Shown here piece by piece: positions 1 to 12,884 of a stretch of DNA of 36,688 bases (the stretch's first letter is position 1; each line of letters begins with the position of its first letter). The notes beneath the pieces were generated by a model. That model saw nothing but the letters and a program-made list of their open reading frames with translations. It was not told the DNA's origin and did no database searches. Both the position numbers and the translations under genes were made by a program. Source of the stretch: Duodenibacillus sp. (GTDB taxonomy: Bacteria > Pseudomonadota > Gammaproteobacteria > Burkholderiales > Burkholderiaceae_F). The stretch spans positions 1 through 36,688 of the forward strand of contig JAGBZO010000028.1 in the NCBI GenBank assembly GCA_017628205.1, written 5' to 3'.

Positions 1-2763
1 ATCGGCTTCTTGGGATTGGCTCCAGGCCAGCGTGGGAAGCTCCGTCGCCAATTCGGACACGTTGTTGTTATGCCAGTAGACGGTTTTCTTTTTGGCGGTT
101 GCCAAGCCCGTCAGACGCGGACGCAACTGGCGCTTCAATTCATCGTCCGAAATGCCGTCCTTGAGAATCGACTCGACGATGGAGTGGATGACGCGTCGGC
201 TTTTTTCAACGGCCTCAAGCTTCGTTTCGACTTCCGCCGAGAGGTAACCGAACCCTTGATCCAGCTCGAACGAGCGATAAGCGGCGGAAGGCGAATAGGC
301 GACGGCTTCGTTTTCACGCAATTGCACGCGCATGCGATCGCGCACGACCGAGCCTAAAAGCGATCGAGCCAAAACCGTCTTGCGATCGGCGACGTCGGGC
401 AAGTCGCTGTGCCAGGCGATTTGTACGAAGGCTTTGCCTTGATTGTCGCCTTGGACCGTGACCGTCCGGGTTTGGTTGTCGGGGAAGACGGGGGGCTTGC
501 CTTGCGTCTCACGCTCGACGCGCTTGACGTCGATGGCGCCGAACAAACGAGCCGCTTCGCGTGCGACCGCCTTTTCGTCAAAGTCGCCGCTAATCACAAG
601 CGAACGCGGGCCGCCGGAGCGGGAGTCTTGGACATAACGTTGCATTTGCGCCAGGCTCACGGCACGGGCCGCCTGTTCGGTCAGCGGCATGCTGCGCGCG
701 CGATCGCCGGTCAAGAAGGCGGTGCGCTGCGTGCGCATCACCCCTTCGACGGTTTTTTCCAACCGGTATTGGCTTTGAGCCACCGATTGGACGACGCGTT
801 CGTAATTGGCCTGCGTCAACGTCGGATCTTGGTATTGCGTCCAGATGGCTTGCAGCAATAACACGGCGTCGGCCGATTGGGCTTGTCCGCCGATCAGGTT
901 GTAGCGCGAGCCCAACGATTCGGAGACGCTCAGACCGCGAGCGCCGAACGTCTTGGCCTGTTCGAGCGCCGTCAATCGTCCCACGCCGTTTTCGCCCAAC
1001 GTGGCGATGGCCATACGGGCGATGTCGGTTTGTTGTTCCGACACCCCGTCAAGCCCGTCGCCGAAAATGTACGTGGCGCGAACGGAGCCCTTTTCAAACG
1101 GCGTCTTCACGAAGCGAACGCGGGTGCCGTTTGCCAAGGTCATGGCGAAGCCTTCGACGCCGAGCGACGCATCGCCCAAGCGGGCGTCGGGCGTTGCCGT
1201 CACGCGCTCGACCTCGGCCGGTAAGGGCAAGTAGGGGAAGGCGCTCGTTTCAGTCTGTTGCGCAACGGCGACGGGTTTGTTTTGCAACGCCGCCCAGTAA
1301 TCGAGCACTTCCCGTTCGGTGGTTTTTACGTTGCCACTCACTAAAATACGACGGTTTTCAGGGGCTAACATGGCCTTGAGCGCGGCGTTGACCTCGTCGA
1401 GCGTGAGCGTGGGCTCGAGCTCTTTATAGATGGCCGAATCGGTTTTCGCCGACGTAAACACGCGGTCGGCATTGGCTGAAGCGACGAACGCTTTTGCGTA
1501 ATCTTCGTTGCTCAAAGCCGACTCTTGGCGCACGGCGCGTTCGAGCATACGGGCGATATCCCGTTTGATGTCGGTGAATTCCCGCTCGGTGAGGCCGAAT
1601 CGGCGTGCGCGGTTCATTTCTTCACTCAACCCCTCGAGGGCCGCTTTCCAATGCTTGCCGTCGGTGGTGGCCGTGTACTGTACCGCGGGCATCATCATGC
1701 TGCGCCAGCCGCAACGAACGAAGGCCTTCGTCCAGGCGTTGGCGTGCGTATCGCGGTATTGCATCAAGCGACGTTGAAGCGCAACGCGAATGATGCTGTC
1801 GATGTACTGGCGACGTTGTTGCACCAGGTTGTCTTTTTCATACGTTCGGTCGTGAAGAATCACGACGTTCACGGAGGCGGACGTAATCGGTCGCTCTTGC
1901 ACGAGAGCTTTCACGCCGGTACGGTCAATCGCGCCGAACGTTTCGAGCTCGGGCAACCTGTCGGGCTTGATCATGTCGTCAAAATGGCTTTCGATCAAAG
2001 GCTTGACGTCGGCGGCTTGAACGTCGCCCGCAATCACCACGATCATGCGGCCCGGAACGTACCATTTCGTGTAGAAGTCGCGAAGCGCCCGTTGATCGAT
2101 GGCATCCAGCGTCGATTGGGTTCCAATCGTCTCGTGCGTGAAACGGGAACCGGCGTAGAGAAATTGGCGCCATTGGCGCGCGGCTAAAACCGCCTCGCTT
2201 TCGCGCGAGCGCTTTTCCGCCAGAATGACCCCCCGTTCGTTATTGACCTCGTCTTGGGCCAAATCCAAGCCGTCGGCCACGTCGCGCAAAATTTTCAAAC
2301 CGTTCGATAGCGACTCGGGACGCGTGTCGGCGAGATTTAACTTGTAGACCGTTTCATGCAGCGTGGTGTGCGCATTGGTGTCGCCGCCGAAATTCATTCC
2401 GTGCGTTTGAAAAAAGGGGATGAGTTCGCCCGGCTTAAAGTGACGACTCCCGTTAAAGGCCATGTGCTCCAGGTAGTGGGCGATCCCCAGTTCGTCTTGC
2501 TCTTCCATGAGGCTGCCGGCTTGAACGTTCAAATAAAGGCTGACGCGTCCTTTGGGATTGGCATTGGGGATCACGGCCCAGCGAAGGCCGTTGGCGAGCG
2601 TTCCGAACGTAATGCGGGAATCAGGTTTGATGTCGCTTTGCTCATGGGCCCATCGACCGTCATACCAGGCAAACTCGGCCGCTTGAGCCGACATCGGCAA
2701 GGCCATCATCATGCTGCAAGCCAGCATGGCGCAGCGCTTTTTAAACAGAATCGGTGATTTCAT
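1..2763 (-). CDS. M16 family periplasmic zinc protease, PqqL/FusC-like (partial, 3' end off window)
   Basis: The reading frame opens with ATG at 2763-2761 and stays open to base 1, giving 921 codons; E. coli PqqL is about 931 residues, so only the last few residues are missing. Residues 1-29 form a signal peptide (KKR, a hydrophobic Met/Leu/Ala core, ending AQA). The inverted zinc motif HxxEH is seen as HYLEH at residues 96-100, and a further conserved Glu in NNERGVILAE (about 176) is the likely third ligand. This is the two-lobed M16B architecture with an active N-terminal half. It is the last gene of the operon, 19 bases after the TPR gene. In E. coli (YddA-YddB-PqqL) and Pectobacterium (Fus) this enzyme cleaves protein substrates brought in through a dedicated TonB receptor. 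The linked receptor and YddA-like transporter suggest the same role. The natural substrate is unknown. Confidence 0.9.
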   Translation of the reverse strand, partial: MKSPILFKKRCAMLACSMMMALPMSAQAAEFAWYDGRWAHEQSDIKPDSRITFGTLANGLRWAVIPNANPKGRVSLYLNVQAGSLMEEQDELGIAHYLEHMAFNGSRHFKPGELIPFFQTHGMNFGGDTNAHTTLHETVYKLNLADTRPESLSNGLKILRDVADGLDLAQDEVNNERGVILAEKRSRESEAVLAARQWRQFLYAGSRFTHETIGTQSTLDAIDQRALRDFYTKWYVPGRMIVVIAGDVQAADVKPLIESHFDDMIKPDRLPELETFGAIDRTGVKALVQERPITSASVNVVILHDRTYEKDNLVQQRRQYIDSIIRVALQRRLMQYRDTHANAWTKAFVRCGWRSMMMPAVQYTATTDGKHWKAALEGLSEEMNRARRFGLTEREFTDIKRDIARMLERAVRQESALSNEDYAKAFVASANADRVFTSAKTDSAIYKELEPTLTLDEVNAALKAMLAPENRRILVSGNVKTTEREVLDYWAALQNKPVAVAQQTETSAFPYLPLPAEVERVTATPDARLGDASLGVEGFAMTLANGTRVRFVKTPFEKGSVRATYIFGDGLDGVSEQQTDIARMAIATLGENGVGRLTALEQAKTFGARGLSVSESLGSRYNLIGGQAQSADAVLLLQAIWTQYQDPTLTQANYERVVQSVAQSQYRLEKTVEGVMRTQRTAFLTGDRARSMPLTEQAARAVSLAQMQRYVQDSRSGGPRSLVISGDFDEKAVAREAARLFGAIDVKRVERETQGKPPVFPDNQTRTVTVQGDNQGKAFVQIAWHSDLPDVADRKTVLARSLLGSVVRDRMRVQLRENEAVAYSPSAAYRSFELDQGFGYLSAEVETKLEAVEKSRRVIHSIVESILKDGISDDELKRQLRPRLTGLATAKKKTVYWHNNNVSELATELPTLAWSQSQEAD

Positions 2764-12884: not shown

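Follow-up and report, generated by a model that had tools for sequence, protein, structure and literature searches.

A protease-associated import cassette with an integral TonB2-type motor in Duodenibacillus sp. and related genomes

The TonB-dependent import of whole proteins as food has been detailed for ferredoxin in Pectobacterium, where, as far as the excerpted literature goes, the source of the pull is still being modelled; the locus described here places side by side the genes apparently required for such an import line and those of a complete Ton motor. The cassette occupies the first 12.9 kb of a stretch of 36,688 nucleotides from Duodenibacillus sp. (JAGBZO010000028.1, positions 1 to 36,688; "the window" denotes this whole stretch), which is contig 9 entire of a genome of 1.83 Mb and 85.7% completeness. 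Its nine genes, arranged in two divergent groups, make up an import system of the protease-associated kind that includes its own motor, judged from its domains to be of the Vibrio TonB2 type, and this system recurs as a unit in the bacterial family of the organism. Receptor, motor, protease and transporter together constitute a testable unit, which raises the question of the purpose of the little-understood proteins TtpB, TtpC and TtpD and might account for the theft of iron or food from intact proteins by some bacteria. What is new is the exact co-occurrence of receptor and motor component among related genomes, the existence of two cassette lineages, the difference in transporter within one of them and, in the organism itself, a sole detected Ton motor that seems to be devoted to a single import receptor. 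The features of the cassette are as follows.

1..2763, minus strand: M16 zinc protease with a signal-peptide-like N-terminus and the motif HYLEH (Pfam PF00675 and PF05193; phmmer against PDB; predicted fold)
2783..4021, minus strand: TPR protein at the TtpD position (Pfam TPR; likened to TtpD by its TPR repeats and place only)
4025..4744, minus strand: TonB (PF03544, E 4.4e-20)
4741..5139, minus strand: ExbD (PF02472, E 9.8e-30)
5132..5731, minus strand: ExbB (PF01618, E 3.3e-17)
5724..7154, minus strand: TtpC, 476 residues, with a long N-terminal region and an ExbB-like C-terminal domain (PF01618, E 1.1e-22)
7154..7942, minus strand: TtpB (DUF3450; PF11932, E 1.5e-43)
8063..8081, plus strand: Fur-box-like site, 120 bp ahead of the motor/protease operon (16/19 to consensus)
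8550..8568, plus strand: Fur-box-like site, 36 bp ahead of the receptor start (16/19 to consensus)
8605..11100, plus strand: FusA/YddB-family TonB-dependent receptor (PDB sequence matches; predicted fold)
11205..12884, plus strand: SbmA/BacA/YddA-type ABC protein with its own ATPase domain, at the FusD position (PF06472, PF05992, PF00005)

The left group, on the minus strand, follows the order ttpB-ttpC-exbB-exbD-tonB-TPR with the M16 gene at its end, successive genes either overlapping or being separated by 3 and 19 bases; the right group, on the plus strand, consists of the receptor (831 residues) and the ABC protein (559 residues). A preliminary description of the locus, made from the sequence alone, had placed the nine genes at these positions, had counted 19 bases between the TPR gene and the M16 gene in one operon and had noted the motif HYLEH, and all of this is confirmed by the open reading frames and by Pfam, the motif lying at residues 96-100 of the protease. 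The gene set is complete but for the end of the M16 gene, and two details need correction: the M16 frame runs without a stop into the contig end, leaving 921 residues visible and the 3' end missing, and the TtpC start is most likely the ATG at 7154, which overlaps the DUF3450 stop, rather than the TTG of the mechanical open reading frame.

The identity of the receptor is supported both by sequence and by predicted structure. FusA and YddB are its sole PDB sequence matches up to E = 1, no siderophore or cobalamin receptor being among them, and they are also the nearest folds to its model, siderophore and cobalamin receptor folds ranking far below; the receptor can thus be assigned, on its sequence and its modelled fold, to the FusA/YddB family, as had been proposed, and it did not group with the receptors for siderophores or cobalamin. 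Its identity to a Pectobacterium FusA is about 28%, and it falls in another clade of the receptor tree (22 near-duplicate loci and frames shorter than 650 residues or scoring 300 bits or less are omitted from this tree). Structure predictions covered the window's own receptor and protease, 31 of 79 loci from a survey of FusA-family receptors (see below) and 22 of the 42 among them that carry an M16 gene.

The M16 protease, a full-length single-chain enzyme of its family, finds its best PDB match in PqqL (6ofs, E 2.5e-47, over residues 47-916), the top sequence matches being PqqL, a Porphyromonas M16 protein and FusC. With PqqL it has in common H96-E99-H100 and E183; the latter aligns with PqqL E167, which is listed as the third zinc ligand in the excerpted text of a review (PMC12731061), and all four residues are invariant among 23 aligned M16 proteins. 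The proposal that the protease is of the PqqL/FusC kind agrees with these best matches, and the M16 tree speaks neither for a single clade with PqqL and FusC nor for a grouping away from them: in a tree whose import set comprised frames of at least 800 residues (the split M16 gene of the related genome G004 is thus absent), the window enzyme groups with that of a second relative, G475, and with two enzymes of sulfate reducers, and the branches joining this clade to PqqL and FusC are long on a poorly resolved backbone.

The motor is, on the evidence of its domains and gene order, a set of the Vibrio TonB2 type. In the portions of PMC6957404 available, the tonB2 operon of Vibrio vulnificus begins with ttpB2 (DUF3450, 255 residues) and ends with ttpD2 (TPR motifs), both being required for TonB2-dependent siderophore uptake; TonB2 and TonB3 comprise the same six kinds of part as the window, beginning with ttpB, then ttpC, and closing, after tonB, with the TPR gene. 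TonB2 serves the uptake of several siderophores, while TonB3, which starts with a receptor gene, has no iron substrate known; M16 is not mentioned for the Vibrio systems in those portions, whereas the operon of the window ends with it. Against PDB, DUF3450 has no clear relative (best E 0.054), and in TtpC only the ExbB/TolQ/PomA-like domain is matched.

The likeness to TonB2 extends to regulation, since a potential Fur box lies ahead of V. vulnificus ttpB2 (PMC6957404, as excerpted) and a Fur-box-like site occupies the same place in the window. A scan of the 36.7 kb with the Fur consensus, allowing three mismatches in 19, gave exactly two matches, one ahead of each gene group, where none was expected by chance (100 shuffles); both sites are in silico predictions. 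In the relative G019, no Fur box was found within three mismatches, and one with five lies upstream of the receptor; in G475 a similar site appears only at seven mismatches. Predicted iron control is well supported for the window alone.

The conservation of the cassette was examined among 67 genomes of the bacterial family. A FusA-like receptor occurs in four of them, namely that of the window (G000), G004, G019 and G475, and the same four are the only ones with DUF3450 above the curated cut-off; such a coincidence has a chance of 1.3e-6 if genomes are taken as independent, which they are not fully. At E 0.001 or better, DUF3450 is matched in 18 of the 67, of which 14 fall under the curated cut-off and only the four above it were counted. 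In G000 the whole set is adjacent; in G019 it forms a single operon (receptor-ABC-M16-DUF3450-TtpC-ExbB-ExbD-TonB-TPR), and the parts found in G004 are of the same kinds, in the order of G019, spread over three contigs (L039, L156, L160). G475 carries on one contig a receptor, a binding protein, two permeases, an ATPase, DUF3450 and TtpC, and on another ExbB-ExbD-TonB-TPR-M16 in the same order as the window; its permeases and ATPase were assigned by likeness to Pfam-scanned genes of a Desulfovibrio locus (L055) and by a hidden Markov model (HMM) tag. Conserved synteny among related genomes had been proposed as a check, and linkage to a complete Ton motor does recur within the family.

The four genomes belong to two genera, the window sharing one with G004 and G019 sharing the other with G475; in the receptor and TtpC trees, the window pairs with G475 and G004 with G019, and the M16 tree likewise joins the window with G475. 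In the TtpC tree (frames of at least 400 residues), a single clade of all four proteins is neither established nor rejected (p-AU 0.515). There are, therefore, two cassette lineages, each present in both genera, which points to the cassette having been transferred, or duplicated long ago, as a unit.

Outside the family, linkage was surveyed in the best 80 of 441 confirmed relatives (79 loci), selected for their similarity to the window receptor, a set that does not amount to a census; genes were tagged with HMMs built from sequences of this analysis, and some stretches end at contig ends. An M16 gene is present at 42 of the 79 loci and a YddA-type ABC gene at 27 (28 by score, L055, whose ATPase is of the binding-protein-linked type, having been misassigned); a TonB gene adjoins the receptor at 16, ExbD occurs anywhere in the stretch at six, and DUF3450 at none. 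A phylum sample yielded a FusA-like receptor in 13 of 398 genomes, the window's own included, and the 12 further loci show M16 at five, ExbB-ExbD-TonB near the receptor at one and DUF3450 at none. Among published systems, Pectobacterium Fus matches the window in its FusA-family receptor, periplasmic M16 protease, SbmA/YddA-type ABC protein and linked TonB, but has only the TonB-like FusB where the window also links ExbB, ExbD, TtpB, TtpC and the TPR protein; YddA-YddB-PqqL of E. coli is the same three-part set, with no TonB parts linked within a stretch of 25 kb. FusA homologues have been sorted into 24 clusters, 12 of them with linked FusC, ExbB being absent from the main text of that study as excerpted (Grinter et al. 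2019, PMC6793856), and no published FusA-type import system with a TonB2-type motor was found in a literature covered mostly through open access. The Desulfovibrio receptor at L055, sister to the window-G475 pair and 37% identical to the window's, lies with a family-5 binding protein, permeases and an ATPase, plus M16, ExbB and an ExbD-like frame. In the one assembly concerned, an ATPase of the binding-protein-linked type is fused in frame to TonB at this locus (L055 15617-18178, 853 residues), the TonB part having an apparent membrane segment, a proline-rich linker and the TonB C-terminal domain; the fusion adjoins the FusA-like receptor and M16.

The inner-membrane step is where the four cassettes differ. 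The ABC protein of the window (best PDB match 6tqe, E 1e-62) is 33% identical to E. coli YddA and 42-43% to its G019 and G004 homologues; such an SbmA/YddA-type transporter is present in the window, G004 and G019, and is replaced in G475 by a Yej-like set whose binding protein has among its best solved relatives MbnE, a methanobactin-binding protein, and YejA. The leading 13 kb of the window contain no binding protein of this YejABEF/MbnE-linked sort. As far as the excerpted reports go, relatives of both types import peptides: BacA and YejABEF both import peptides promiscuously, phazolicin among them (PMC10128002), and BclA, an ABC relative of SbmA/BacA, transports antimicrobial peptides (PMC12003926). 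The transporter thus differs within one lineage while relatives of both types carry peptides, which suggests that peptides may cross the inner membrane; most simply, peptides made by the M16 protease would be carried inward, unlike the freed iron-sulfur cluster whose uptake has been proposed for FusD (PMC13253070, in part). The presence of either transporter within one lineage makes the choice between peptides and a freed iron-sulfur cluster testable for the known systems.

On these grounds the cassette probably encodes an import line that is under iron control, has its motor built in and takes up a protein or a long polypeptide. In such a line, the FusA-like receptor would bind the cargo at the cell surface; TonB, driven by ExbB-ExbD with TtpB, TtpC and the TPR protein, would then open the plug and draw the cargo into the periplasm, where the M16 protease would cleave it; the SbmA/YddA-type ABC protein would move the peptides, perhaps with iron or a cofactor, to the cytoplasm, and the Fur-box-like sites before both operons would turn the line on under iron shortage. 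A bolder picture, to be entertained only tentatively, is that of a self-powered protein-eating line, in which TtpB, TtpC and the TPR protein would be adapted to bulky cargo, the protease would sit at the inner end of the motor, the peptides themselves would be food, the whole TonB-dependent economy would serve one cargo and the cassette would be mobile, with exchangeable peptide transporters.

Several observations weigh against an import line for proteins with a motor of its own. Measured by TM-score, insulin-degrading enzyme (0.65-0.70) resembles the M16 model more than FusC (0.58-0.60) or open PqqL (0.47) does, while E-value and Z in the structure search place PqqL and FusC on top; and 37 of the 79 surveyed loci have no visible M16 gene, some of them ending at contig ends. 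DUF3450 is common without such a receptor (87 of 369 genomes of the class), and neither a FusA-like receptor nor M16 was seen in any of the 14 DUF3450 contexts inspected with several kb of flanking sequence wherever the contig was long enough, 30 others with 1.5 kb or less being uninformative on neighbours. Further Plug receptors occur in G004, G019 and G475 and could be served by the motor; the solved kin of the G475 binding protein include MbnE, as noted; and the closest Campylobacterota receptors examined adjoin PepSY_TM genes or ABC and DUF4857 genes, which also fits a small iron compound. Finally, E. coli YddA has been reported, in the available part of PMC9728188, to be an ATP-driven multidrug exporter.

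Some of these points would be accommodated if the motor were the general Ton motor of the cell, merely adjoining the import genes, so that linkage would reflect shared regulation and not shared work; the several siderophores served by V. vulnificus TonB2, the further Plug receptors in three of the four carrier genomes and the 14 contexts just mentioned all speak for it. We consider this the best preserved of the alternatives and nevertheless unlikely: receptor and DUF3450 co-occur exactly in four of 67 genomes, Plug being found in 54 of the 67 and DUF3450 above cut-off in these four only, and the two pairs of genomes are the same in the receptor tree as in the TtpC tree. Moreover, a Plug search of the window's genome returned one receptor, that of the cassette, and no other. 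ExbD is matched there by two proteins, the cassette copy and one on contig 30, whose neighbourhood is presumably a tol cluster, judging from gene order; TonB_C is matched by the cassette TonB and, weakly (29 bits), on contig 14, where no ExbD was found. The contig 14 match (L148 4512-4865) lies in frames of about 117 to 135 residues, with little beyond the C-terminal domain and apparently without a membrane segment; it is perhaps what remains of an ordinary Ton system, one that seems intact in the sister genome G003, which carries a Plug receptor together with a TonB adjoined by ExbD- and ExbB-like frames. Since no other TonB-dependent receptor was detected, the motor looks like the sole Ton motor of the organism rather than a private extra, and it is likely the only one, though 14% of the genome may be absent from the assembly; the word "private", applied to the import machine in the preliminary description, therefore calls for rewording. 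That a motor is needed for lack of TonB in the family is refuted by TonB_C in 57 of the 67 genomes, beside the distribution of Plug. In G019, the second TonB-dependent receptor adjoins another SbmA/YddA-type ABC protein (L154 3665-7508), no M16 being tagged there.

A second alternative, also unlikely and slightly more so, is that the cargo is a metal-binding peptide or a peptidic metallophore, imported whole and trimmed by the protease so as to free the metal. The YejA/MbnE-like binding protein of G475, the family-5 binding protein at L055, the PepSY_TM proteins beside two Campylobacterota sister receptors and the Fur-box-like sites are in its favour; on the other side, the nearest receptors by sequence and by fold are FusA and YddB, FusA importing a whole protein (PMC6793856, as excerpted), and no metallophore-making genes were found in the 19 window proteins scanned with Pfam. 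As to the neighbours of these receptors, PepSY_TM follows directly at L057 12314-13453 and L060 8174-9277, both from Campylobacterota, with no M16 in the stretch; an ABC ATPase and a DUF4857 protein adjoin FusA-family receptors at L056 6046-8977 (Campylobacterota) and L055 5981-8848 (Desulfovibrio).

It is improbable that the ABC protein acts as an exporter of toxic products or drugs, the cargo reaching the periplasm only and its iron being freed there; the activity reported for E. coli YddA would suit this, but BclA-type ABC relatives transport antimicrobial peptides, and the transporter that G475 has at the same place is of the binding-protein-linked type, which belongs to the importers. A genuine system for ferredoxin uptake as in Pectobacterium Fus, the cargo offered as an example in the preliminary description, is very improbable, for although FusA is the nearest among solved structures, the window's receptor, only about 28% identical to a Pectobacterium FusA, lies in a different clade, and the double arginine before the YP motif, which was conserved in the authors' FusB sample and of which one arginine is critical for ferredoxin binding (PMC13253070, in part), is present in the Pectobacterium, Dickeya and Erwinia rows but absent in the TonB of the window, G475, G004 and G019, which leaves ferredoxin unsupported as cargo.

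Adjoining the cassette, the window carries at 13459-18957 two peptidases of the M20 family, a carrier of the DcuC family and an amidohydrolase, which are consistent with peptide or amino-acid use. Farther along the contig, at 22008-34805, type III secretion genes are found (TyeA/HrpJ, the FHIPEP export gate, a secretin, a YscD-like protein and an ATPase).

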